Source: Chitinophagaceae bacterium | GTDB lineage: Bacteria; Bacteroidota; Bacteroidia; Chitinophagales; Chitinophagaceae | Length of the DNA: 16,729 nucleotides | Assembly: GCA_947378615.1 (NCBI GenBank) | Contig: CANCKV010000012.1 | Location: 1 to 16,729, forward strand | Direction of reading: 5' to 3' | Part shown: piece after piece, positions 2,131-16,729 of the stretch | Layout: each line of letters starts with the position of its first letter | Position numbering within the stretch: the first letter of the stretch is position 1 | The notes under the pieces: model-generated | The model's database searches: none | The model's input: the letters and a program-made list of their open reading frames with translations, nothing else | Told to the model about the DNA's origin: nothing | Made by a program: the position numbers and the translations under genes

Positions 2131-3222
2131 ATGGAAAAAGCAACACTTAATCGGTTCTTCTTAAATCAATCTGATAGCTTCGAAAGGCTTAGGGTGATTG
2201 ATTGGATGCTAAATCCTATCAATGACTTTACTTTAAAGGCGTGGATGAGAGAAAACTGGGAGTTGTTGTCTGAATATGATACAAGTGTAGAGCCTGATAT
2301 TGATAAAATATGGTTCAAATTGCAGGAATCAATCAAAAAGGAAATAGCTAGCACTGTTCATTCTAACCCTACAAATTCTAGCCCTAAAAATTCATTAACT
2401 AGAAAAATATTTTTGTATTCCTCTGCCGCTGCCGCAGTTTTTATTTTTGTTATTGGAGGTTATTTTTTACTCAAAATGACTAATTCTAATAATCATGATG
2501 ACAATCTGATTGCTTATGGGAAAAATGTAATTGTTGAAGAAAATAATACTTCAGTCAATAAATTGATACGGCTTGAAGATGGTACAACAATTACGTTGAA
2601 TCCTCATTCAATATTTTACTATCCTACTCATTTTATCAATGGGAAGAGAGAAGTAGCCTTAAAAGGAAATGCATTCTTTCAAGTAGCAAAGAATCCTGAA
2701 AAGCCCTTTTTTGTATATGCAAACAATGTTGTGACTAAAGTATTAGGAACAAGTTTTACTATTCTTACCAATCCGAATACTAAAGAAGTCTCTGTATCTG
2801 TTCATACAGGAAGAGTGCAAGTATTTGAGAAAAACTCTGCAAGTCAAAGTGCCTTTAATGAAAAGGTTTTGACTTCAAATGGGGTGATTGTTACAGCAAA
2901 TCAAGAAGCAATATATTCAAATAAGAAAAACGATTTTCAAACAACCCTAATCCCTGTTCCACTCCCACTGCCAAATGTCAAAGAAAAAGAAAAAACTTTT
3001 GAATTTGAAAGGGCAAACCTGCTAGATGTTATTAGTAAAATTCAGCAGGTTTACGGGGTGGAAATTGTCTTAGAGAATGAAAATTTCAATAAGTGTATTT
3101 TTTCTGGAGAGTTGAATAGTGAAAATCTTTTTGAAAAGTTAGACATTATTTGTACTGCTATTAATGCTACTTATGAAGTTTCGGGAACTAAAGTACTCGT
3201 TAAAGGTAAAGGATGTAATTAG
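2131..3222 (+). CDS. FecR-family anti-sigma factor
   Basis: Inner-membrane sensor that relays a signal from an STN-bearing outer-membrane transporter to a cytoplasmic ECF sigma factor. Residues 1-90 are cytoplasmic, with a three-helix-like start (NRFF, W25, W37, W43). A single membrane span lies at about 93-115 (hydrophobic FLYSSAAAAVFIFVIGGYF), and the rest is periplasmic. The FecR core is at about 145-212: RLEDGTTITLN, then KREVALKGNAFFQVAKN and KPFFVYANN. A DUF4974-type region follows at 288-360 (FEFERANLLDVISKI, then FSGELN), which is typical of Bacteroidota. Its 363 residues are a normal length. The next gene is a SusC with an STN domain, the expected partner. Unusually, no ECF sigma gene sits directly upstream; the PL6 lyase is there instead. 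ATG at 2131 is the only sensible start; no Shine-Dalgarno is visible, as usual for this phylum. Confidence 0.95.
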   Translation: MEKATLNRFFLNQSDSFERLRVIDWMLNPINDFTLKAWMRENWELLSEYDTSVEPDIDKIWFKLQESIKKEIASTVHSNPTNSSPKNSLTRKIFLYSSAAAAVFIFVIGGYFLLKMTNSNNHDDNLIAYGKNVIVEENNTSVNKLIRLEDGTTITLNPHSIFYYPTHFINGKREVALKGNAFFQVAKNPEKPFFVYANNVVTKVLGTSFTILTNPNTKEVSVSVHTGRVQVFEKNSASQSAFNEKVLTSNGVIVTANQEAIYSNKKNDFQTTLIPVPLPLPNVKEKEKTFEFERANLLDVISKIQQVYGVEIVLENENFNKCIFSGELNSENLFEKLDIICTAINATYEVSGTKVLVKGKGCN

Positions 3223-3251
3223 ATAAATGAAGGAGACTTATCTAGTCGGAG

Positions 3252-3267
3252 TTGGTATTTTTACCAA
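3252..3267 (+). promoter_or_regulatory. hairpin between FecR and SusC genes
   Basis: TTGGTA-TTTT-TACCAA is a perfect 6-bp stem with a 4-base loop, 30 bases after the FecR stop. It lacks a following run of T, so it is a weak terminator at best. It may partly uncouple fecR from susC or set relative transcript levels. Confidence 0.3.
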
Positions 3268-3376
3268 GTTTAGTTCAACAACGTTAAGCAACTCATTTTG
3301 ATTATTTTTAAAGATTGCTAGCTTGTAAATTTTAGATTGTTTGTATCCAAACTTGTATATTTATTTTATAAAACAA

Positions 3377-3396
3377 TAGGTAACTTCAGTTACCTA
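3377..3396 (+). promoter_or_regulatory. 8-bp inverted repeat at the SusC start
   Basis: TAGGTAAC-TTCA-GTTACCTA is a perfect 8-bp stem with a tetraloop. It ends 2 bases before the first possible ATG (3399) and 14 bases before the second (3411). As RNA it would mask the ribosome-binding region if 3399 were used. As DNA it is a dyad that could bind a regulator. Its core has the same GTAAY-N4-RTTAC layout as the palindrome before FecR. Confidence 0.5.
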
Positions 3397-3398
3397 CA

Positions 3399-6300
3399 AT
3401 GCGAATTTCGATGAACTACAGAATTATACGATTATTAATTATTGCCTCCATCTCATTATTTTTATTACCAAGAGAAACGAATGCTCAAAATGTACTTGAT
3501 AGGAAAGTAAACGTTTCAGTCAATGATACTGAGCTAAGAAAGGTGTTGGAATTGGTTCAAAAGCAAACAGGTGTACACTTTGTTTACAGTCCCAATACTA
3601 TTGATGACAGCAAAAAAGTAAGCTTTCATTTAACGAATAAAACACTGAAGAACTTCTTTTCAGAACTTTTAGCTACTTATGGCATTAGCAACAAATCGCT
3701 TAGCGATAATAAGATATTATTATTTATTGAACAGGTAAAGAAACAGATTCTTAGTGATGTAGCCCCTCCTCCAACAGAAAAAAAAGAAGTGTCCTTTACT
3801 GCAATAACGGGAACAATAAAGGACAGTATTGGCAATCCTGTTGAGGGTGTGACCGTATCAGATAAAAATAGTAAGGCGACTGCTGTAAGTGATAGAAAGG
3901 GGGTTTATACCATTAAAATTCCTGACAATAATACAATACTTAGATTTAAGCATGTAGGCTATGCTACCATTGAAAAAAAGGTGGATGCATCGAGTGTAGT
4001 CAATATTTCGATGCTAGAAGTAGCGGGAAATTTGAATGAGGTAGTGGTAATTGGTTATGGCACTGTCAAGAAAAAAGACCTTACTGGGTCTGTTTCAAAA
4101 GTTAATTTATCTGATTTGGAAAAGGCACCCGTAAAGTCTTTTGATGAGGCTTTGGCAGGTAGGGTAGCAGGTGTACAAGTATCTTCTGTAGATGGACAGC
4201 CTGGAGCGAGTGTTAGTATTTCTATTAGGGGGAACAATTCTTTGACTCAAGATAATTCACCTTTGTATATTATAGATGGGTTTCCAATGGAAAATCCCAA
4301 CAATAACATACTCAATCCTGCAGAGATAGAATCTATGGAGGTGCTGAAGGACGCTTCTGCTACGGCTATTTATGGTGCTAGAGGTGCGAATGGTGTCATA
4401 ATCATCACTACCAAAAAAGGGAAAATAGGTGCGCCCACTCTTACTTTTGATACTTATTATGGGGTTCAGCAGGATACGAGAAAGATGGATTTGATGGATC
4501 CATATAATTTTATTAAATACCAATATGAATTAGATTCTAATAGGACTAAAACAACGTTCTTTAGTAATGGGAGAAATCTAGAATCGTATAGAAATGCAAA
4601 AGGTGTCGATTGGCAAGGGCTGTTGTTCAGGACTGCGCCTATGACTGATTGTAATTTATCTTTAACAGGAGGAACAGTCAATACAAAATACGTAATTTCA
4701 GGTTCTATTTTAAATCAACAAGGTACCATCACGAACTCCGATTACAAAAGGTATCAGGGGCGAGTCGTATTGGATCAAACGATAAATAATAAAATTAAGG
4801 TTGGAATAAATGCAAATTATAGTAATCTAATTCAAAATGGAGGCTCAACTACTACTACTACAGCATATAATGGGGTTACAAGGGGTTTAATGTACAGTGT
4901 GTGGGGATTTAGACCAATATCTGCAGATAGTACAAATGATAAATTGGTTAGTAGTCTTTTTGATACTAGCTTTTACGCTAATCTGACCAATGATTATAGG
5001 GGCAATCCAATCATTAATTTAAATAACATTTTAAACAGGAAAACGACTAATGCAATTGTTGCAAATATGTATCTTGATTATTTACTTTCACCAGGATTGA
5101 GATTGAGAATAACAGGAGGGATTAGTAGGACACAATTAAGATCCGATGCTTTTTATAGTCTTAATACGGTTCAAGGAAATCCTTCGAGTCCTGTAGGAGC
5201 GAATGGACCAAATGGTTCTGTCAGTTATGCGAATACAAACACTTGGGTAAATGAAAATACATTGACTTATGTAAAGCAAATTAATAAAGATAACCAAATA
5301 AATATATTGGGAGGAGCCACATTTCAAGGAGCAAAGTTTGATAGTTATGGATATTCTGCAATTCAAGTTCCAAATGATCAATTAGGGATAAGTGATTTAG
5401 GGGAGGGTATTCCTCAATCGGTTGCCTCAAACAATACGAGTAATGCACTTGCCTCTTTCTTGAGCAGAATAAATTATACCCTTTTTACTAAGTATCTTTT
5501 TACGGTTTCTATTCGTGCTGATGGGTCATCAAAGTTTGCTGCAAACAATAGGTGGAGTTATTTTCCATCGGCTGCTTTTGCTTGGAAAATTAGTTCTGAG
5601 AACTTTACTAAACGTTTTACTTGGTTGTCAGATGCTAAGTTAAGGACGAGTTATGGGGTGACAGGGAATAACAGAGTAGGCGATTTTGCCTATCAATACA
5701 CGATATCATCACCTATTTCTGCTACCTATCAGTTTAATAACTCGCCTAATAGAGGAGCAATACCGAATGCACTAGGCAATCCAAACTTGAAATGGGAAAC
5801 AACGATTCAAGCTGACATTGGTTTAGATGTCTCTATTTTTAATCAAAGAATCGATATCACCATGGATTATTATAATAAAGACACGAAAAACCTGTTATTG
5901 AATGCTCCTTTGCCTGCTTCAATGGGTTTTTCAAGTGATTATAAGAATATAGGGCAGGTTAGAAATTCTGGTTTTGAATTTAGTATCAATACGGTTAATA
6001 TCAAGACAAGCAACTTTAGTTGGTTGTCTTCTTTTAATATAACTTTTAACAGAAGTAAGGTAATTGCTTTGACTCAAAATCAGGAAACTTTACTTTCATC
6101 AATAGGTCTTGATGCAACAGGTTATTCTGCTCCTCTTTATATGGCAAGGATTGGTCAACCGATTGCTCAGATAATTGGATATAAATGGGATGGGGTCTAT
6201 CAATTTGTTGATTTTAATCAAGTGGGTTCTAAAAATATTTTGAAAGAAAATGTGCCTAATAATGGAAATTTGCGGAGTAGCATTAGACCGGGAGACATAA

Positions 6301-6869
6301 AATACAGAGATATCAATCGGGATGGGGTTGTTGACGCAAATGATGTGACTATTATTGGGAATCCTTATCCCAAACATATTGGAGGGCTAACCAATAGTTT
6401 TAAATATAAAAGTTTTGATATTAACTTTTTCTTTCAATGGTCTTATGGTAATGATGTTGTGAACCTTAATAAATTAATCTTTGAAGGCAATCAATCAGCA
6501 ATACTCAATCTGAATCAGTTTGCTAGTTATGAGAATAGATGGACGAAGGACAACACAAATACGACTGAATATCGTACAGGAGGAGGAGGTCCAAAGGGAA
6601 CCTACTCTTCTAGGATTATTGAAGATGGATCGTATATCCGATTGAAAACAGTACAATTTGGCTATAATCTACCTACTAATAATTTGAAAAAAGCGGGTAT
6701 AAAAAGTATGCGTGTTTATATTTCAGGACAAAATTTATATACTTGGACAAAATATTCAGGTATGGATCCTGAAGTGTCAAGTTACCAATCGACTCTTACA
6801 CCCGGCGCTGATTATTCATCCTATCCAAGAGCTAGAACAACAACGATTGGAGTGAATATTAATTTTTAA
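3399..6869 (+). CDS. SusC-like TonB-dependent outer-membrane transporter with STN domain
   Basis: Imports oligosaccharides across the outer membrane using TonB energy, in complex with the SusD encoded next. A signal peptide covers residues 1-29 (cut near TNA-QN). An STN secretin/TonB domain is at about 35-110, a Pro-rich linker near 122-126, and a CarboxypepD_reg-like domain at about 135-208. A TonB-box region (NEVVVIGYG) is at 213-221. The plug at about 225-340 carries the SusC signatures LAGRVAGVQV, YIIDGFP and DASATAIYGARGANGV. The 22-strand barrel runs to the terminal NINF. Its 1156 residues are usual for the STN-containing class. The STN domain marks it as a transducer to FecR. The start could be ATG 3399 or ATG 3411 (Met5); 3411 gives a cleaner signal peptide (MNYRIIRLL) and clears the upstream hairpin. 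Confidence 0.97.
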   Translation: MRISMNYRIIRLLIIASISLFLLPRETNAQNVLDRKVNVSVNDTELRKVLELVQKQTGVHFVYSPNTIDDSKKVSFHLTNKTLKNFFSELLATYGISNKSLSDNKILLFIEQVKKQILSDVAPPPTEKKEVSFTAITGTIKDSIGNPVEGVTVSDKNSKATAVSDRKGVYTIKIPDNNTILRFKHVGYATIEKKVDASSVVNISMLEVAGNLNEVVVIGYGTVKKKDLTGSVSKVNLSDLEKAPVKSFDEALAGRVAGVQVSSVDGQPGASVSISIRGNNSLTQDNSPLYIIDGFPMENPNNNILNPAEIESMEVLKDASATAIYGARGANGVIIITTKKGKIGAPTLTFDTYYGVQQDTRKMDLMDPYNFIKYQYELDSNRTKTTFFSNGRNLESYRNAKGVDWQGLLFRTAPMTDCNLSLTGGTVNTKYVISGSILNQQGTITNSDYKRYQGRVVLDQTINNKIKVGINANYSNLIQNGGSTTTTTAYNGVTRGLMYSVWGFRPISADSTNDKLVSSLFDTSFYANLTNDYRGNPIINLNNILNRKTTNAIVANMYLDYLLSPGLRLRITGGISRTQLRSDAFYSLNTVQGNPSSPVGANGPNGSVSYANTNTWVNENTLTYVKQINKDNQINILGGATFQGAKFDSYGYSAIQVPNDQLGISDLGEGIPQSVASNNTSNALASFLSRINYTLFTKYLFTVSIRADGSSKFAANNRWSYFPSAAFAWKISSENFTKRFTWLSDAKLRTSYGVTGNNRVGDFAYQYTISSPISATYQFNNSPNRGAIPNALGNPNLKWETTIQADIGLDVSIFNQRIDITMDYYNKDTKNLLLNAPLPASMGFSSDYKNIGQVRNSGFEFSINTVNIKTSNFSWLSSFNITFNRSKVIALTQNQETLLSSIGLDATGYSAPLYMARIGQPIAQIIGYKWDGVYQFVDFNQVGSKNILKENVPNNGNLRSSIRPGDIKYRDINRDGVVDANDVTIIGNPYPKHIGGLTNSFKYKSFDINFFFQWSYGNDVVNLNKLIFEGNQSAILNLNQFASYENRWTKDNTNTTEYRTGGGGPKGTYSSRIIEDGSYIRLKTVQFGYNLPTNNLKKAGIKSMRVYISGQNLYTWTKYSGMDPEVSSYQSTLTPGADYSSYPRARTTTIGVNINF

Positions 6870-6901
6870 TTGACAAATGATAAATCGAAATAAAATATAA
6901 G

Positions 6902-8530
6902 ATGAAGAAAAATATTAAATTAAATATAAAACATAGGAAAAGTTACGGTAGTATCTTTCTTGTTGTGATGATTTTGCAACTTGTTAGCTGTAACAAATTT
7001 TTGGATACTCAACCCCAAAATGTTACAGCTGAAAGTAATTTTTATAGTAATGCAACACAATTGAGTAATGCCTTAACTGGTGTTTATGACATTCTAGCTA
7101 CTGCTAATGTATATGGTGATAACATTTGGGATGCTTTAAGTGTGGCAACAGATGAATCATATTATACAGTTTCTACCACAATTAGTGGCGTTCAATTGAT
7201 GAATTTCACCTCTTCTGAATCATCAATTGCGAACACTTGGGCCGATTTGTATATTGGGATTAACAGGGCAAATCTTGTTTTGGAGAATATAAATAAGCCA
7301 GTAATGGATTCCACTAGCAGAGCTGCAATTCAAGGGCAGGCGTTGTTTTTAAGGGCCTATTATTATTTCTTGCTAGTTTCTAATTGGGGTGATGTGCCAC
7401 TAAAGCTTCACTCGTCAATTTCTCCCGACAGTATTTCTTGTCCTCGGTCTGATTCTAAAATTGTGTATAATCAGATTGTTAGTGATATGACTGCTGCCGA
7501 TTCATTGGTACAGCCTGCTACCTTCTACGGGTTTGGTGGTAGGGTTTCAAAAACTACTGTGGAAGGAATATTGGCAAGGGTATGTTTACACAGGGCAGGA
7601 TTATTCACTGCTGGATTTTCTACTATTGATGACCGTGCTACTTGGTTTGCACAATCCCTTTATTGGTCTAGGAAAGTCATTAATTCTGGAATTCATTCTT
7701 TAAATCCAAGTTATAGTCAAATATTTATTAATCATTGTCAGAATTTATATGATATTAAGGAAAGCATGTGGGAAGTCATGTTTTATGGAACTGGAAACGG
7801 AAACCCTTATCCTCAGAACGGAAGGGTTGGCAACAATAGTGGTATCAAATGTAATGATCTTGTATATGGTTATTCTTATGGCTTCATTGCCGCTCAATCT
7901 AAATTATATACTTCATTTGCAGCTGCTGATTCATTCAGAAGAGATTGGAGTATTGCGCCATTTACTTTATCCACTACAAATGGAGTAACGACAAAAGTGC
8001 CTTTTTCTGCTACGGCTATTTATACTAGGTATGATGGGAAATGGAGAAGGGAATATGAGTTAGGAAACAATAAGCAAAAGAATAATACTTCTATCAATTA
8101 CCCTCTGCTTCGTTATGCCGATGTATTGCTGATGTATGCAGAAGCAGCAAATGAGGTGAATGGAGCTCCTACCGATTCTGCATATTGGGCAATAAATCAG
8201 GTTAGAAGGCGTGCGTACAAGTATCCTTTAAATACTCCAAACGTAAAATGCGATATTGCAACAGGATTGTCTGATCAAGAATTTCGGCTAACTGTACAAG
8301 ATGAACGGTACCGAGAGTTATGCTTTGAAGCGTTACGTAGAAATGATTTGATTCGTTGGGGGAAATATATTTCTACTATGAAGACAATGGCTCAACAGAT
8401 GCCTGTAGGTGCATCTGCGATGGCAGCTATTGCTGCAAACAATATTCAACCGAAAAATGTTTTGTTTCCAATACCTATTGGTGAATTGTCACTAAATCCA
8501 GGGATTGGGAAACAAAATGTAGGATGGTAG
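6902..8530 (+). CDS. SusD/RagB-like glycan-binding lipoprotein
   Basis: Surface lipoprotein that caps the SusC barrel and binds glycan. The lipobox LVSC puts the lipidated Cys at residue 30, followed by NKFLDTQPQ, a standard SusD start. The N-terminal SusD-like part has TPR-type helices (FLRAYYYFLLVSNWGDVPL at about 150-168). The C-terminal RagB/SusD part has NYPLLRYADVLLMYAEAANE near 398-418 and DERYRELCFEALRRNDLIRW near 467-486. The length of 542 is typical. It starts 32 bases after susC, so the two are surely co-transcribed. The lipoprotein export signal after Cys30 (N-K-F-L-D) is not strongly acidic. Fold and role are firm; the ligand cannot be read from sequence. Confidence 0.97.
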   Translation: MKKNIKLNIKHRKSYGSIFLVVMILQLVSCNKFLDTQPQNVTAESNFYSNATQLSNALTGVYDILATANVYGDNIWDALSVATDESYYTVSTTISGVQLMNFTSSESSIANTWADLYIGINRANLVLENINKPVMDSTSRAAIQGQALFLRAYYYFLLVSNWGDVPLKLHSSISPDSISCPRSDSKIVYNQIVSDMTAADSLVQPATFYGFGGRVSKTTVEGILARVCLHRAGLFTAGFSTIDDRATWFAQSLYWSRKVINSGIHSLNPSYSQIFINHCQNLYDIKESMWEVMFYGTGNGNPYPQNGRVGNNSGIKCNDLVYGYSYGFIAAQSKLYTSFAAADSFRRDWSIAPFTLSTTNGVTTKVPFSATAIYTRYDGKWRREYELGNNKQKNNTSINYPLLRYADVLLMYAEAANEVNGAPTDSAYWAINQVRRRAYKYPLNTPNVKCDIATGLSDQEFRLTVQDERYRELCFEALRRNDLIRWGKYISTMKTMAQQMPVGASAMAAIAANNIQPKNVLFPIPIGELSLNPGIGKQNVGW

Positions 8531-8532
8531 AA

Positions 8533-8605
8533 TTAATTGATAACTCATAATTAGGAAATATGAATTATTAGTTTGAATTATCAATTATCAATTAAAAATT
8601 ATCAA
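8533..8605. repeat. AT-rich intergenic repeat patch between SusD and the DUF5017-like gene
   Basis: TTAATTGATAA (8533-8543) is repeated inverted as TTATCAATTAA (8585-8595), giving an 11-bp stem around 41 bases. The motif TTATCAA recurs directly at 8578, 8585 and 8599. The structure lies wholly in the 81-base gap. It could be an RNA hairpin that tunes expression below SusD, or a degenerate intergenic repeat of a kind common in low-GC Bacteroidota. Confidence 0.45.
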
Positions 8606-8611
8606 ATAAAA

Positions 8612-9499
8612 ATGAGAAATAGTTTAATTATTTTGGTTATCATATTAGCGGTTATTTCCTGTACTAAAAAGGATGTAAGCCCTGTCTCATTTAATGTGAC
8701 ATCTGATTCTGTTAATTTTAACGTAGGAGATACTGTTAATTTTTCGTTAAGCGGGAATCCCGATTATATCCTATTCTATTCAGGTGAAAATGGCCATAAC
8801 TATGCTTATAGAAACAGGGATAGTGGGACTGGGACTCCCTTACTCAATTTTTTAAGCCAAGAAAAATTTGGCAATCACAAGAATACTTTGCATCTATTGG
8901 TTTCTACAGATTTTAATGGCAGTTTATATGATACTACCGAAGTTAGAAATGCAACTTGGATTGATATTACAAATAGGGCGAAATTAGATAGTACATCCAT
9001 TTTGACACCTTCTGGGAGTATTAATTTGAGTGATTTTCAAAACTATAGTACACCTATTTATGTAGCATTCAAATTTGCTGATCAACAGGATGGGATTAAT
9101 GCACAGCGAACTTGGAATATTACAAATTTGACTTTAGCAAATTATTTGCCTGATGGTTCAAGTTTTACAGTATTGGACATAGCAAATAGTCTTTGGTTGA
9201 GTGCAAGTTTTTTAACTCCCTACGTAAATTGGATTCAATCAACAACTGCATTAACATTTAATGGTGGAACTAAAACAGCACTTTCAAATGAGGCATGGTT
9301 TGTATCACAACCTGTTAACCTAAGTAAAGTGATTCCAGATGTTGGAGTACCCATTAAAAAGATGACTGACCCCGTTTTAAAAAGCTTTTATCATATTTAT
9401 AATAAGCCAGGTAATTACACGGTAGTATTTGATGTAACAAACGCAAATGCAAATAGTAGTACTGTCGCTTCAAGATCAATAAATATCACTGTTCATTAA
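8612..9499 (+). CDS. DUF5017-like surface lipoprotein in SusE position (putative surface glycan-binding protein)
   Basis: A 295-residue lipoprotein with lipobox VISC (Cys17) followed by TKKD. The N-terminal part (about 23-75) has VGDTVNFSLSGNPDYI, FYSGENG and YAYRNRD, which fit the DUF5017 family found beside SusCD pairs. The middle section is beta-rich (WIDITNRAKLDS; IYVAFKFADQQDG). The end (YHIYNKPGNYTVVFDVTNAN onward) looks like a PKD/Ig-type beta-sandwich. Proteins at this position usually bind the PUL glycan on the cell surface. A TTG codon at 8573 would extend the frame, but ATG 8612 gives an ideal lipoprotein signal and clears the repeat patch. The binding role is inferred from position and lipid anchor; no catalytic motif is seen. 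Confidence 0.85.
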   Translation: MRNSLIILVIILAVISCTKKDVSPVSFNVTSDSVNFNVGDTVNFSLSGNPDYILFYSGENGHNYAYRNRDSGTGTPLLNFLSQEKFGNHKNTLHLLVSTDFNGSLYDTTEVRNATWIDITNRAKLDSTSILTPSGSINLSDFQNYSTPIYVAFKFADQQDGINAQRTWNITNLTLANYLPDGSSFTVLDIANSLWLSASFLTPYVNWIQSTTALTFNGGTKTALSNEAWFVSQPVNLSKVIPDVGVPIKKMTDPVLKSFYHIYNKPGNYTVVFDVTNANANSSTVASRSINITVH

Positions 9500-9513
9500 T
9501 TATAAAAATATAA

Positions 9514-10890
9514 ATGATTGCTATGGTTAAATTTCTACATTATTTAAAAAGTTTATGGGTTGGTGGTGAAAAAAAAGTAACAAAGTCAAATACTATAGTT
9601 ACAGCCGCTAGAATTGCTCCTTCTTTAACTGTTGCTTCCAAAAGGAAGGATATCGTTATGAATGTCGTTCAAACGTCTAGCAAAGGGGCCGCCTGTTTGC
9701 TTTTGATGCTTATAAGTCCGAAGGTGAATGCACAATTGACTAAAAAAGCCTTTAGTAATGCACAGCAGCAATGCAAGAATATGTTATTGGTCACAAAAAA
9801 TCCTGCACAGCCTCCTCGAACCACAAGGCCTGACGGGACATTGGCATTCTCCCCCGACATCTATGATTGGACAAGTGGATTCTTTGCAGGTAGTTTATGG
9901 TACACTTATGAAGCTACAAAGGATCAAAACCTGAAAGCAGAAGCTGTACGATATACAGAAGCCCTTGATTCTCTTCAATATTTCACCGGACATCATGATA
10001 TTGGATTCATGCTTTATTGTAGTTATGGTAATGGCTACCGCATCACACAAAACGAAAAATATAAGGACGTTTTAGTTCAGGGAGCCAAATCTTTATGTAC
10101 TAGATTCAATCCAATCACAGGTTGTATCAAGAGTTGGAATCAGCGATTGTCATGGGATGGAAAAACAATGTGGCGTTTCCCAGTTATCATCGATAATATG
10201 ATGAATTTGGATTTGTTATTCTTTGCTTCAAGGGTGACAGGGGATACCACTTTTAAGCATATCGCTATTACGCATGCCTTGACGACTATGAAAAATCATA
10301 TCCGTCCCGACTATAGCACCTATCATGTGGTAGATTATGATACTAAAACAGGTAAGGTTCTGCATCAGGAAACTTGTCAAGGATATGCTAATAATTCGAC
10401 TTGGGCAAGGGGACAGGCATGGAGTATTTATGGTTTTACATCTGTCTTTAGGGAAACAGGGGATAAGCAATTTTTAGAAACGGCACAACATCTTGCTGAC
10501 TTTTATTTGAATAATGCAAGCCTACCGAAAGACAAGATTCCATATTGGGACTTCAATGCAAATCAAACGGGGTATCAGCCACAGTTTAAATATGATGCAT
10601 CTTTATACAAGGAAATTCCTAGGGATGTGGCTGCAGCTGCAGTGGTTGCCTCCGCATTATTTGACCTAAGTAAATTCTCTGGAAAGAAGGGAGAAGGGTA
10701 TAAGAAGGCTGCTATTGAGATTATTAAGTCATTGTCTTCTTCACAATACACTGCGGAAGTGGGTACCAACAATAATTTCATTTTGAAGCATGCTACAGGT
10801 AGTTTACCTCATAATCAGGAAATAGATAAGCCATTGGTTTATGCTGATTACTATTATTTGGAAGCGCTATTAAAATATAATAAGCTGTAA
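9514..10890 (+). CDS. GH88 unsaturated glucuronyl/uronyl hydrolase
   Basis: Hydrates the 4,5-unsaturated uronate at the non-reducing end of lyase products, splitting it off. The (alpha/alpha)6-barrel motifs are present in order: DWTSGFFAGSLW (about 118-129), HHDIGF with the first catalytic Asp candidate (162), IIDNMMNLD with the second (227), STWARGQAW (295-303) and DVAAAAVVASAL. The last gene of the PUL, it matches the products of the PL6 lyase. The start is uncertain. ATG 9514 lies 14 bases after the previous gene, but puts 48 basic residues before a signal peptide that begins at Met49 (MNVVQTSSKGAACLLLMLIS, cut near VNA-Q). ATG 9658 has an AGGAAGGA seven bases upstream and gives a 410-residue protein of usual size, exported to the periplasm. 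The longer frame is given because it stays open throughout; 9658 may be the true start. Confidence 0.93.
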   Translation: MIAMVKFLHYLKSLWVGGEKKVTKSNTIVTAARIAPSLTVASKRKDIVMNVVQTSSKGAACLLLMLISPKVNAQLTKKAFSNAQQQCKNMLLVTKNPAQPPRTTRPDGTLAFSPDIYDWTSGFFAGSLWYTYEATKDQNLKAEAVRYTEALDSLQYFTGHHDIGFMLYCSYGNGYRITQNEKYKDVLVQGAKSLCTRFNPITGCIKSWNQRLSWDGKTMWRFPVIIDNMMNLDLLFFASRVTGDTTFKHIAITHALTTMKNHIRPDYSTYHVVDYDTKTGKVLHQETCQGYANNSTWARGQAWSIYGFTSVFRETGDKQFLETAQHLADFYLNNASLPKDKIPYWDFNANQTGYQPQFKYDASLYKEIPRDVAAAAVVASALFDLSKFSGKKGEGYKKAAIEIIKSLSSSQYTAEVGTNNNFILKHATGSLPHNQEIDKPLVYADYYYLEALLKYNKL

Positions 10891-12889: not shown

Positions 12890-15361
12890 TTAGATAGGAA
12901 TATCTAACTTCAAACTAATATTTCTCCCCATATTATAAATGCCGTCAACTCCCGTTTTAGGATTAGGATATGAATAAAAATATTTCAACCTACTTAAATG
13001 ATCCTGATAGGCTTTGTCAAGCAAATTATTACCCATCACATAGGCGCTGAACAGGGGTTTCTTTTGCTTGTTGGTAAACGTAGCTCCAATTCCAGCATTG
13101 AAAAGTGAATATCCGGGCGTCTTTGTTTCGGTATTATAAGCGGTATATACTTTGTTTTGGGCAGCATATATCTCTGCTTGTATTTTCACAAATCCTTTAA
13201 CCAAATGGAGTTTCTTATTTGTAAAATCAAGGCGAAGTTCAGAAACGCCATGAGTAGGAGAAATTTGTGGTAGATACTTTGTACTATCTCCAACCGACTT
13301 GCCTGATACGCCCTTATTATCACCGAAAACCACAGAAATGCTATTTTCAAAATGGACTGACTTTACAGGATGCAAATTCAAACTACATTCTCCACCATAA
13401 AGTTGCGCCCTAGCAGCCTGAAATTGAAAGGTTTGGTTGCCCTTTGCTAATATCAAATCGCTTCCATCAGGATTTGTGAGCTTTTGATTATAGATATAAT
13501 TGCCAATATTATTATTAAAAATATCAAGGGTAGCAGTAAGCGTTTTTTCTGAAAATATGAATCCGATATCTTCTTGCCAACTGAATTCTGATTTAAATTC
13601 AGGGTTTCCAAGCTGATAGATATTTGTGCCAGGATGAACACCATTTGCTGAAACCTCTGCAATATTAGGTGCACGATACCCTCTTCCAATATTTGCCTTT
13701 ACAGAAAAGTGTTCTGAAAAGTTATAGGTAGCTCCAAGACTTCCAGAAAAGCCAGAGAAAGTCTTTGAATAATACGAAAATATTTTCTGCCCCCCAACAG
13801 TATCACTACCAAATAAAGCCATGCCAAATCCATTTTGAGGATTCACTTTCGAGTAAAGTTCTTCATTTTTGAAAGCTCGAATATCATAACGTATCCCTCC
13901 CGCAACATCTAATTTACCATAAGATTTTTTTGCAGTAATAAATGGACCAATATCGAACTGATGATAATTAGGAATGATAAAATCTGTTCCACTTGTGACA
14001 TTATTTTCTTGTTGCATTCCATTGACACCTGTAGTGATGCTCAGGTTGTTAAATTCCCTAAACGTATATTTGATATCATAAGTAATGGAATGAAGTTGGA
14101 GGTCCAATCCTGGAATAGTATTTAAAACGGGGTGACTAAATTCCTTTCGGGTGCTATTTTGAAACCCTAGATTTAAAATCAAATGATTTCCATCCCCCAC
14201 CAAAAAGTCGTTGCTCCAATAAACCCGAAGATGTTGCACATGTTGATGTAACTTTTCAATCTGATAATTATTCAAATCGTCATTCGAAACAATCTGCCTT
14301 ATTGCATCAGTTTCTGTTATCTGCCTTGTAAACTTGCGTGTTGAACTATCCCTGCTACCATCAGGTATCTCCTGTAAATCATCAAATAGAATAAAATTTA
14401 GGTGGGAAAATCCCCAAGAACGATGAATCCCTACAGAAGCAGTCGCATCAGTTTCACTATATGCTGTTCCAAATACCTTACCATCATATCTGTTTTGATA
14501 ATCAGCCGCTTGTTTATGCGACAGTCGGCCCATCCATTCAATTCCATTAATAGTCTTGCCCAAGAAAACAGATCCGCCAATTTGTTTATTATTTCCTTGA
14601 TAATCCAATACAACATCCCCTATAAATTTTCCTTCTGGGGCGGGTTGAGTGGGTATAATATTGACGACTCCCGCCAATGCATCAGAACCATAGCTCAAAC
14701 TCGCAGGTCCTTTAATAATTTCTACCCTATCTTCACTATACTGATCCACTTCTATTCCATGTTCATCTCCCCATTGTTGCCCTTCTTGACGTACACCATC
14801 ATATAAGGTAAGAATGCGATTGTAACCTAAACCTCTGATAAAGGGTTTTGATACATTCGGACCAGTCGTAACGGCTCGAACTCCCGGAATCCTCACCAAA
14901 CCATCTATTGCATTAGTTGAAAGATTTGTTACTAAAAAATCATGACTGACAGAAACTATTGGAACTGGATTTCTTTTTATCAACGTAGCCTTAGAAACGC
15001 CTGTAACAATCACTTCTCCCTCATCAGAAAAGCTTTCCATAAGTTTACAATTGTAGATAGTGCCAATAGATAGTGTCACATACTTTGAAACAGATTTATA
15101 CCCTACAAGTTTCACTTCTACCAAGTATTTTCCATTTGGCAATCCAGAAAATGCATATTCTCCATTAGAATTAGTAGCGATGCCTTTCTTTAAATCCGTT
15201 ATATAAACAATTACACCATCTAGAGGTCTATCATGTTCGTCGCGAACCCTTCCAGATAAAGTCGCATTTGTATTTTTATTACCATTGTCTGATCTTGTAT
15301 TTTGAGTAAAACCCACCGAAGTAAGTATCAAAGCAATTATAATACAGTAAATTTTATTCAT
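12890..15361 (-). CDS. TonB-dependent outer-membrane receptor (non-SusC; possibly metal or metal-chelate uptake)
   Basis: An 823-residue receptor. It has a signal peptide (about 1-19), a CarboxypepD_reg-like domain (34-105, SGRVRDEHDRPLDGV, NGEYAFSGLPNGKY), a TonB box (GEVIVTG, 115-121) and a plug (about 135-240). The plug holds IRGLGYNRILTLYDGVRQEG, then QQWGDEHGIEVDQ and VEIIKGPASLSYGSDALAG. The barrel includes GRGYRAPNIAEVSANG and ends in a receptor-type strand with NNLLDKAY and ISLKLDIPI. It is far shorter than SusC and has no SusD partner, so it is not a glycan importer of that type. The WGDEHG plug sequence and a His/Cys-rich small protein just upstream suggest metal-related cargo, such as zinc or copper as in the ZnuD/OprC receptor group; this is inference. 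The start is ATG 15361, with an ordinary signal peptide. Confidence 0.9.
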   Translation of the reverse strand: MNKIYCIIIALILTSVGFTQNTRSDNGNKNTNATLSGRVRDEHDRPLDGVIVYITDLKKGIATNSNGEYAFSGLPNGKYLVEVKLVGYKSVSKYVTLSIGTIYNCKLMESFSDEGEVIVTGVSKATLIKRNPVPIVSVSHDFLVTNLSTNAIDGLVRIPGVRAVTTGPNVSKPFIRGLGYNRILTLYDGVRQEGQQWGDEHGIEVDQYSEDRVEIIKGPASLSYGSDALAGVVNIIPTQPAPEGKFIGDVVLDYQGNNKQIGGSVFLGKTINGIEWMGRLSHKQAADYQNRYDGKVFGTAYSETDATASVGIHRSWGFSHLNFILFDDLQEIPDGSRDSSTRKFTRQITETDAIRQIVSNDDLNNYQIEKLHQHVQHLRVYWSNDFLVGDGNHLILNLGFQNSTRKEFSHPVLNTIPGLDLQLHSITYDIKYTFREFNNLSITTGVNGMQQENNVTSGTDFIIPNYHQFDIGPFITAKKSYGKLDVAGGIRYDIRAFKNEELYSKVNPQNGFGMALFGSDTVGGQKIFSYYSKTFSGFSGSLGATYNFSEHFSVKANIGRGYRAPNIAEVSANGVHPGTNIYQLGNPEFKSEFSWQEDIGFIFSEKTLTATLDIFNNNIGNYIYNQKLTNPDGSDLILAKGNQTFQFQAARAQLYGGECSLNLHPVKSVHFENSISVVFGDNKGVSGKSVGDSTKYLPQISPTHGVSELRLDFTNKKLHLVKGFVKIQAEIYAAQNKVYTAYNTETKTPGYSLFNAGIGATFTNKQKKPLFSAYVMGNNLLDKAYQDHLSRLKYFYSYPNPKTGVDGIYNMGRNISLKLDIPI

Positions 15362-15484
15362 TAATTTGTTTTTTCATGGTCTGTGAAAAAAAATAGGTAC
15401 GCCATTGATTGTTTTATCCAATAAGTATTTCGAATTATCTTAAAAACTGTTCAATCTTCGGATATCTTAAAACGCCTAAATGCG

Positions 15485-15550: not shown

Positions 15551-15883
15551 TTAGGCAATTGAGGGTGGTCCCCTTAATTGTAGTATTATTGGGAATAGTG
15601 ATGAAAGAAAAGACTGATAGAATGCCTTCTCTTCCTCTCCCAAAATAATGTTAGGAACAGTGAGACTAATTTGTTCAACCGTATCTAATGGTAAAAAAAA
15701 GTCATCAATACATTCGCAATGAATGGAAGATATTTTTGAGGTTCTAGTTGATTGTTGTTTTGAAAAATTTGCATTGATTGTACTGTTATGGTAATGAGTA
15801 TGAATAATCAAACGTAATGCAGCTTTTTCCAAAAAAAGGAAAAAGAGAAATACTGCAAAAATTTTTCTTATCAAGTCACTCAT
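15551..15883 (-). CDS. small membrane-anchored protein with HxHxH and HCxCxDD motifs
   Basis: A 110-residue protein I cannot name. Residues 5-20 form a hydrophobic segment (IRKIFAVFLFFLFLEKA) that is a signal anchor or signal peptide. Directly after it is a possible metal-binding cluster H28-T-H30-Y-H32, and at 55-61 the motif H-C-E-C-I-D-D. The C-terminal half is plain, with PNIILGEEE and a Pro-rich end. It sits 189 bases upstream of the TonB-dependent receptor on the same strand. His/Cys placement just outside the membrane segment fits a periplasmic metal-handling helper, but that is inference. The frame extends to 15916 (MKRCCIRYIC), but ATG 15883 gives the clean hydrophobic start and lies below a full -7 box at 15914-15921. 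Confidence 0.7.
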   Translation of the reverse strand: MSDLIRKIFAVFLFFLFLEKAALRLIIHTHYHNSTINANFSKQQSTRTSKISSIHCECIDDFFLPLDTVEQISLTVPNIILGEEEKAFYQSFLSSLFPIILQLRGPPSIA

Positions 15884-15913
15884 GTCGCAAATGTATCTAA
15901 TGCAACATCGTTT

Positions 15914-15921
15914 CAAATGTA
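15914..15921 (-). promoter_or_regulatory. -7 promoter element for the small His/Cys gene
   Basis: On the minus strand the site reads TACATTTG, a full match to TAnnTTTG, with a partial -33 box (TTTA) 19 bases upstream. It lies 30 bases before ATG 15883, giving a short leader. A second identical TACATTTG follows at 15888-15895, only 4 bases before the ATG; using it would require a nearly leaderless message. Confidence 0.45.
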
Positions 15922-16011
15922 AAGGCTGTTAAAAAAGGTATAAAGGTAAAAGTCAAATTGCTAGAGATTATTCTTCATTTTTAAATAAAATGTTGAAATT
16001 TAAAAAAATGT

Positions 16012-16043
16012 TTTGTTAGTATCAGAAATGTCCTTTATATTCG
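16012..16043 (+). promoter_or_regulatory. well-spaced Bacteroidota promoter for a candidate small RNA
   Basis: TTTG at 16012-16015 and TATATTCG at 16036-16043 (7 of 8 to TAnnTTTG) are 20 bases apart, inside the 19-21 base optimum. No + strand gene follows before the window ends; the next + strand feature is an intrinsic terminator about 35 bases downstream. Confidence 0.6.
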
Positions 16044-16047
16044 CATC

Positions 16048-16109
16048 GGTTTTCATAGGATATTGGATTTTAAAAACAGGGTTGCATTTCCATGCGACCC
16101 TCTTTTTTT
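16048..16109 (+). ncRNA. candidate free-standing small RNA, about 60 nt
   Basis: A predicted start near 16048 and a terminator ending at 16109 define a transcript of about 62 bases: an unpaired, U/A-rich 5' part of about 30 bases and a 3' hairpin. The only ATG lies in the hairpin, so it is not a small ORF. The single non-Watson-Crick pair in the stem is U-G if read on this strand but C-A on the other, which supports + strand transcription. I do not recognise it as a named Rfam family. It converges on ilvC, so it could also overlap that message if ilvC reads through its terminator. Confidence 0.5.
16078..16109 (+). terminator. strong intrinsic terminator with seven-T tail
   Basis: AGGGTTGCAT-TTCC-ATGCGACCCT is a 10-bp stem with one U-G pair and a 4-base loop, followed by C and seven T (16103-16109). 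It is textbook rho-independent form on the + strand. On the minus strand it is weaker (a C-A mismatch) but still has a GTTTTT tail and could act as a back-up for ilvC. Confidence 0.85.
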
Positions 16110-16162
16110 ATATATCCTACAGTAAAGTGAATAAAGTGAAATTTTTATGTATATAAACAGAG

Positions 16163-16194
16163 AAAGCCCTTGAAGTAAATTCTTCAAGGGCTTT
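16163..16194 (-). terminator. ilvC terminator
   Basis: AAAGCCCTTGAAG and CTTCAAGGGCTTT form a perfect 13-bp stem with a 6-base loop, 49 bases after the ilvC stop on the minus strand. Both strands have T-rich tails (minus TTTCTCTG, plus TTTTCTATT), so it is bidirectional. Confidence 0.85.
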
Positions 16195-16243
16195 TCTATT
16201 GTTAGTCATAAACTTATATTTCATAGTTCATCACTCATATTAA

Positions 16244-16729
16244 CTATGCAACGGTGCTAATTGCTTTCATTGCAGTCATTGCAGCTCTTAAAGTTGCACC
16301 TACTTCTTCAATTTGATGAGAACGGATAGATTTGTTTACAGCTATTAATTCCTTGTTATCTACACCTGCATCAATACCTGCATTGAAGTTCTTACCAATA
16401 ACATCGGTATCAATCTTCTTCATGAAATCAGCTAATAATGGTTTACAAGCATGGTCAAACAAATAACAACCATATTCAGCAGTATCAGAGATTACACGAT
16501 TCATTTCGAACAATTTCTTACGGGCAATCGTATTTGCAATCAATGGAGTTTCATGCAATGACTCGTAATAAGCAGATTCTGCTTTGATACCTGATTCTAC
16601 CATTGTCTCAAATGCCAATTCTACACCTGACTTAACAAAAGCAACCAACAATAAACCATTATCGAAAAACTCTTGTTCTGCTATCTTAGCAGAAGTAACA
16701 GCAGTCTTTTCGAAGGCCGTTTCGCCAGT
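16244..16729 (-). CDS. ilvC: ketol-acid reductoisomerase, class II, C-terminal part (5' end outside window)
   Basis: IlvC converts acetolactate (or acetohydroxybutyrate) to the dihydroxy acid with NADPH and Mg2+ in valine, isoleucine and leucine synthesis, in the cytoplasm. The frame is open to the right edge; 161 residues are visible, about the last third of an E. coli-type enzyme of some 490 residues. It aligns by eye with class II Ilv[79 protein letters not shown], then [17 protein letters not shown]. The Glu residues of YYESLHE and the Ser of ISDTAEYG belong to the substrate/metal site. The N-terminal NADPH domain and gene start lie outside. It is a housekeeping gene with its own terminator and no visible link to the PUL. 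Confidence 0.97.

Follow-up and report, generated by a model that had tools for sequence, protein, structure and literature searches.

Does the DNA lying between a TonB receptor gene and ilvC in a Chitinophagaceae bacterium carry a small RNA (sRNA) gene of its own, and if so, what might that RNA do? A sequence-only reading of the window, by which is meant the whole stretch of 16,729 nucleotides that was analysed (assembly GCA_947378615.1, contig CANCKV010000012.1), had proposed an unannotated intergenic gene of about 60 nt on the + strand with its own promoter and intrinsic terminator. Table 1 presents an overview of the features at this locus. The arrangement described in that reading, comprising TTTG, a spacer of 20 bases, TATATTCG, a 10-bp hairpin and a tail of seven T, is present to the base. 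A GG occupies 16048-16049, and the hairpin reads AGGGTTGCAT-TTCC-ATGCGACCCT at 16078-16101, followed by C at 16102. Promoter and hairpin alone, without conservation, are not beyond chance; the window is only slightly enriched in terminator-like sites (14, expected 9.4 ± 3.3) and shows no excess of sigma-70-type promoter-like sites (67, expected 73.4 ± 7.9), the promoter scan leaving aside the Bacteroidota type. A search of the window with Rfam at gathering thresholds returned no match. The unit stands beyond chance because of its conservation. Homologs, the fit to a covariance model and compensatory changes all support it, and the locus is very probably a stand-alone regulatory sRNA gene on the + strand.

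Table 1. Features of the sRNA locus and its convergent neighbour (positions in the window)
Feature	Position	Strand	Basis
-33 promoter element TTTG	16012..16015	+	Direct reading
-7 promoter element TATATTCG, Bacteroidota type TAnnTTTG	16036..16043	+	Direct reading
Predicted sRNA gene, about 62 nt	16048..16109	+	Start from promoter spacing, end from T-run
5' region GGUUUUCAUAGGAUAUUGGAUUUUAAAAAC, largely open, candidate base-pairing seed	16048..16077	+	Conservation, fold
Intrinsic terminator stem-loop, 10 pairs, loop of 4	16078..16101	+	Terminator scan, covariation
Terminator T-run, 7 T	16103..16109	+	Direct reading, terminator scan
Bidirectional terminator at ilvC 3' end, facing the sRNA and outside it	16162..16195	both	Terminator scan
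ilvC (ketol-acid reductoisomerase) 3' part, convergent neighbour	16244..16729	-	Pfam KARI_C, NCBIfam ilvC models

The predicted 62-nt RNA folds at -17.3 kcal/mol, compared with -9.5 ± 2.5 for 200 shuffles (z -3.2, with two shuffles equalling it). The sequence-only reading had its first 30 bases single-stranded; they are mostly open in the predicted fold, but a weak 4-bp stem forms within them. The same region includes UUUUCAU, a start-codon complement. Elsewhere in the window, positions 2131-10890 comprise a polysaccharide utilisation locus with FecR, SusC, SusD, DUF5017 and GH88 (Pfam), about 5 kb from the sRNA. The minus-strand frame of 121 amino acids (15551-15916) between the TonB receptor and the sRNA matches nothing in Pfam or NCBIfam, and the searches found no relative of it; it may be lineage-specific or no gene. 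On the other side, the stretch 16163-16240 at the ilvC terminator has dozens of scattered matches in same-genus genomes, in the manner of a dispersed terminator-type repeat.

The conserved block in related genomes that the sequence-only reading had suggested looking for was found. With 101 bases of the window as the blastn query (E ≤ 0.001), 99 of the 147 family genomes sampled, a count that includes the genome of the window, gave one to seven matches each, with few candidates scored per genome. In each of the 12 other same-genus genomes searched, the sRNA part is matched with an E value of 1.2e-9 or better, and the flank at 15917-15995 lies outside the matches listed for them; the nearest copy, in genome G008 of that genus, also has ilvC as its neighbour. 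A scan of named genomes for the exact 23-base core yielded at least 119 stretches, from which 115 distinct copies were used after a duplicate, N or edge filter dropped L154, L193, L204 and L213. The titles listed for these stretches include Ferruginibacter, Niastella, Puia, Terrimonas, Flavihumibacter, Cnuella, Flavisolibacter, Longitalea and other genera, together with metagenome-assembled genomes titled Chitinophagaceae, Bacteroidetes or Sphingobacteriales and one Flavipsychrobacter. A taxonomy look-up places Ferruginibacter and Cnuella in Chitinophagaceae, and one locus titled Bacteroidales (L123) is a copy without the hairpin.

Since the 115 copies were selected on the core alone, conservation of the promoter and terminator is independent of the selection. 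The strict -7 box TAnnTT[TC]G is in place in 43 copies (shuffled mean 1.2, maximum 4) and the relaxed form TAnnTT[TC][GA] in 68, leaving 47 without even the relaxed box. Where it is present, the relaxed box starts 15 nt ahead of the core in 64 of 68 copies, and 47 of the 68 have TTG 18-22 nt farther upstream, against a mean of 5.6 and a maximum of 13 in 200 shuffles. Of the 115 copies, 106 have a terminator, compared with three to five when the stem region is shuffled; the test used finds none in the other nine. Both the Bacteroidota-type promoter and the intrinsic terminator of the sequence-only reading thus recur across the family far above shuffles. In the 115-copy conservation profile, the region around -55 is somewhat A-rich and conservation fades just past the T-run. 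A separate feature of some copies is a palindrome, ATACC(C/A/G)-N-GGTAT, in the -33 region 30-75 nt upstream of the core, found in 15 of 115 copies (L117, L119, L128, L131, L140, L143, L172, L178, L180, L187, L203, L206, L208, L222 and L223) and in none of 200 shuffles. Other family copies have different upstream motifs, and different regulators may drive paralogs that have one common seed.

To describe the family as a structured RNA, a covariance model (R1) was built from 20 of 28 aligned copies picked for their stem bulge, with the window left out of training. R1 nevertheless matches the window at 16049-16109 with 77.8 bits (E 2.6e-12). To test covariation, R1 was given the window together with 89 of the 119 loci; it returned 89 matches (L123 had none), which make 78 distinct rows. 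Among these rows 99.5% of stem cells are paired, and nine of ten stem pairs carry double changes; the 81 double-change cells compare with 12.2 ± 2.9 and no shuffle of 500 reaches as high, a wide margin for an alignment that was fitted to R1 and is therefore biased towards structure. Shifting the partner column by one to three positions lowers pairing to 32-61%. The U-G pair that had been taken as a strand marker is conserved in 68 of the 78 distinct copies; it would be A-C on the other strand and so fixes the predicted strand as +.

These data bear on the view that the locus is a mere terminator or the 3' end of a neighbour's transcript, for example the 5' region of the 15551-15916 minus-strand frame or the end of an upstream + gene. 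The hairpin is nearly symmetric and R1 finds a weak minus-strand match in the window (23.4 bits); moreover, 60 of 115 copies have a + gene upstream and a - gene downstream, and the copies lacking a relaxed -7 box would fit such a view. It is nonetheless very unlikely, as most copies have promoter elements at fixed spacing, the 5' block is conserved, the conserved U-G wobble pairs only on the + strand, and the upstream frame in the window lies on the minus strand.

Even less probable is a dispersed repeat, or a selfish element, with a promoter and a terminator but no function for the host. The family is multicopy and mostly intergenic, with identical sequence at different places, as would be expected of a repeat. 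Against this, the stem covaries, the promoter is maintained and many copies are at orthologous positions. The last point follows from the neighbour proteins of the 115 copies, which form clusters of 27, 26, 14, 14 and 11. One representative neighbour is GldN by Pfam, whose partner we take to resemble the C-terminus of UvrC; other neighbours presumably resemble the pyruvate dehydrogenase beta subunit, RecQ and RecA. Overlap with a mechanically called ORF of at least 80 codons is seen in 15 of the 115 copies, a point against the sRNA reading. With the window sequence as query, phage records gave no match and plasmid records gave two short chance-like matches at E 0.5.

A short peptide gene is the least credible of the alternatives. 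Its basis is an open + strand frame of 42 codons from 16028, read by eye, with similar frames running through some copies and a core that reads FFIGYWILK. The earlier statement that the stretch holds no gene on the + strand nevertheless stands in substance: no frame is kept among copies because they differ by single-base insertions and deletions in the T-run and A-run. The T-run is five in 113 copies and four in the other two of the 115, the A-run varies from one to six, and the offset of the hairpin loop, measured in 107 of the 115 copies, falls into each of the three frames. Furthermore, the frame starts upstream of the predicted RNA start, and the hairpin is maintained by pairing.

Turning from the gene to its relatives, R1 gives one strong match in the window's 67.7%-complete genome, the window copy itself (E 6.3e-11), and nine in the relative G016. 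A class-wide R1 search found E ≤ 0.01 in 8 of 295 genomes, five of the eight from the same family. At the place inspected in each of the three outside-family genomes, the GGATATTGG part of the seed is missing, while L066 retains TTTTCATA. These results hint weakly at a family confined to Chitinophagaceae, because the filters were strict and few candidates were scored. Among the titles listed from open-licence PMC papers, none describes the present family.

The closest described counterpart is FopS (family of paralogous sRNAs), which was taken as the lead because the aligned 5' ends agree. Passages of PMC11697453 present FopS as multicopy Bacteroidales sRNAs (Rfam RF04319, BTncRNA_FopS) that are highly conserved within Bacteroidaceae. 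In Bacteroides thetaiotaomicron, FopS pairs near the start codon of SusC mRNAs through a 5' seed and blocks translation, an effect counteracted by RbpB (PMC11697453, same passages). On the window, RF04319 gives a full-length match on the same strand at 19.9 bits (E 0.51), one of 18 chance-level matches listed. The Rfam gathering score of 56 bits is missed by the window sRNA and reached by none of 59 relatives, and therefore the RNA is named FopS-like and not FopS. At E ≤ 1, RF04319 matches 44 of the 59 relatives, most at about 22 to 30 bits and probably by chance; the match at L048 is apparently antisense across a gene start. The best score, 44.1 bits, belongs to L046 in a genome of the same order, and this copy could possibly bridge FopS and the Chitinophagaceae family.

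For a comparison beyond the Rfam score, FopS copies were fetched from Bacteroidales phage and plasmid-collection records, GTGTTTTTCATAGTATTAGATTTAAGGTTAA being one example. FopS measures about 65-70 nt and the window sRNA a predicted 62 nt. In both, an open 5' region precedes an intrinsic terminator, and a Bacteroidota promoter (TTTG / TAnnTTTG) stands directly upstream, read from sequence only for the window sRNA. In FopS the seed opens with UUUUUCAUAG or UUUUUCAUGG shortly after the -7 box, a placement also seen in the window's family. FopS has several copies per genome, and the Chitinophagaceae family appears to have several in some genomes, one copy having been found in the incomplete genome of the window. 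Aligning GUUUUUCAUAG--UAUUAGAUUU with GUUUUUCAUAGGAUAUUGGAUUU gives agreement at 20 of 21 aligned bases between FopS and the family and at 18 of 19 for the window. Of 20000 shuffles of the family consensus, 10 equal its best local score to the FopS seed (R1/R1'), computed on eight of nine FopS loci, and 74 of 20000 do so for the window's 5' end; when the UUUUUCAUAG block is removed, 1320 of 20000 shuffles reach the score, so that most of the signal is UUUUUCAUAG. FopS and the family differ by a 2-nt insertion in the seed, the absence of the AAGGUUAA block and a terminator stem that starts sooner.

R1 was also run on seven records chosen as FopS-bearing (2.9 million bases). There, four of nine matches at E ≤ 10 fall on FopS on the same strand, a coincidence with a chance probability of about 3e-17 under uniform placement, an approximate value, given that true matches are not spread evenly. 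Conversely, R1 recovers four of the 12 RF04319 FopS matches and misses eight, returns nothing in three of the seven records, and has its best match (27.2 bits) on something other than FopS. The sequence relation between the Chitinophagaceae family and FopS is here taken as real, whether by descent or by common duty, as both complement AUGAAAA starts. The Chitinophagaceae copies would constitute a new, family-wide FopS-like branch. The multicopy family and the likeness to FopS are additions to what had been read from the window.

A second B. thetaiotaomicron sRNA, GibS, has in common with FopS the seed named R1 (distinct from the covariance model R1) and has a single-stranded 5' end that pairs at start codons, as stated in sections of PMC7366714. 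Compared by description, GibS is longer (145 nt), carries two additional metastable hairpins and another seed, R2, and has a non-canonical promoter, PM2 (PMC7366714, same sections). The window sRNA is unlike GibS in being a 62-nt unit with one strong hairpin. Qrr, LhrC and OmrA/B, other multicopy sRNA sets named in part of PMC11697453, have several paralogs that act together; they come from other phyla and serve as an analogy only.

What might such an RNA do? Collectively, the evidence favours, as the probable reading, a trans-acting sRNA of about 62 nt with its own promoter and terminator, belonging to a multicopy Chitinophagaceae family and acting by a FopS-like mechanism. What the sequences show is the conserved unit with its promoter, terminator and strand, its copies, their recurring syntenic positions and the likeness to FopS; transcription, mRNA pairing, repression and a protein partner are inferred. 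In such a mechanism the terminator hairpin and U-tail would end and protect the RNA, while the open conserved 5' end GGUUU(U)UCAUAGGAUAUUGGAUUUU would pair imperfectly with mRNA initiation regions around AUGAAA starts. Pairing of the seed would then block ribosome entry on target mRNAs, and the RNA would perhaps act with or against an RRM-type RNA-binding protein. This mechanism is probable by analogy with FopS and is drawn from the architecture because no specific target emerged from the searches.

Pairing was gauged on 263 gene starts in a 400-kb sample of one relative, G016. Its seed complements them slightly better than chance, at a mean of -10.94 kcal/mol against -10.06 ± 0.36 for shuffled seeds, and none of 60 shuffles is as good; by the top-20 and count measures, one and two of the 60 match or beat it. 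No common theme is apparent among the best gene-start matches in this sample. In the window's genome, the seed complement CCAATATCCTATGAAAA occurs at 28 places with up to three mismatches, compared with 14 for the reversed control. Where a start codon is positioned correctly, none of these places opens a long frame, and the frame at C174 leaves its contig after 22 codons. A place with a single mismatch in C460 was rejected as a target, the gene there being on the other strand. Across 13 genomes of the same genus, 35 places carry ATCCTATGAAAA and 20 carry the reversed control; 29 of the 35 were inspected. Of these, 17 belong to sRNA copies, and at the 12 outside such copies the longest ATG frames are of 75 codons (G003) and 72 codons (G006).

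Turning to SusC, no striking complementarity to the seed was seen in the 30 of 128 SusC matches inspected, one of them cut at a contig end; the seed strings of the SusC and gene-start tests differed slightly, so that the two can be compared only loosely. The start of the SusC gene in the window's own polysaccharide utilisation locus (L260) likewise has no clear complementarity. A separate short frame, CCATGAAAAAACAAATTAATGAATAA (MKKQINE), overlaps the TonB receptor start on the minus strand at 15354-15379 and loosely fits the start of the seed. It is possibly a leader frame or a local target.

The main rival to the pairing mechanism is a protein-binding decoy, in which an RNA-binding protein, such as one of the RRM type, would bind the 5' element and be titrated by the RNA in place of any pairing with mRNA. 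Seed columns 3-24, which are 22 consecutive positions, are invariant in 28 aligned copies drawn from high-ranking blastn matches, and this exceeds what scattered imperfect targets would need; some lower-ranking copies, L071 and L078 among them, are variable in the seed, and such copies occur in G016 and G069. A decoy would also suit the lack of a long complementary target in the searches run and the RbpB CLIP peak on the 5' portion of FopS in Bacteroides, which part of PMC11697453 describes. RRM_1 proteins were found in 13 of 15 genomes searched, with one, a candidate partner, in the window's genome. However, RRM proteins are present in genomes with no detected sRNA copy as well, and so their presence does not follow that of the copies in this small genome set. 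The conserved block opens with a start-codon complement, which suits pairing, and the G016 seed outperforms shuffles on gene starts. A decoy is considered unlikely, and mRNA pairing is preferred.

Other elements of similar design occur among the relatives. A second subfamily, CAGTTTTCATAGGGTACGGATTAAAAACGGGCC-like and with a terminator, scores 35-43 bits to R1 (L077:1216, L079:1502, L081:1557 and L070:1502). Start-codon complements followed by hairpins are also seen, as TTTTCATAGGATAAGGTTTAATGGTTAATGG (L049:1506, L051:1578 and L326) and as GGTTTTTCATAGGATATGGTTAAAATTC (L052:1558). In Prevotella oral taxon 299, near position 975060 (L324), TTTCATAGAATATTATTTTAAGCGG precedes an inverted repeat and a T-run; this element scores 22.4 bits to R1, is not called by RF04319 and is possibly another related RNA. 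A search for other subfamilies by motif plus terminator was uninformative, with three matches outside the core set against zero to two in 30 permuted controls.

On a more tentative note, sRNAs that open with UUUUCAU[A/G]G could form an ancient Bacteroidota class that predates the split of Bacteroidales and Chitinophagales, although we hold this to be somewhat doubtful. FopS and the Chitinophagaceae family would then be two branches of general translation-initiation dampers, with subfamilies and differently regulated paralogs feeding one common seed. At its threshold, the Rfam FopS model misses the Chitinophagaceae branch. A FopS-related multicopy family across Chitinophagaceae would extend such control to a second order, one of largely environmental and not gut bacteria. 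Two questions become testable: why the seed is nearly unchanged throughout the family, and whether importers are under post-transcriptional control in Bacteroidota at large.
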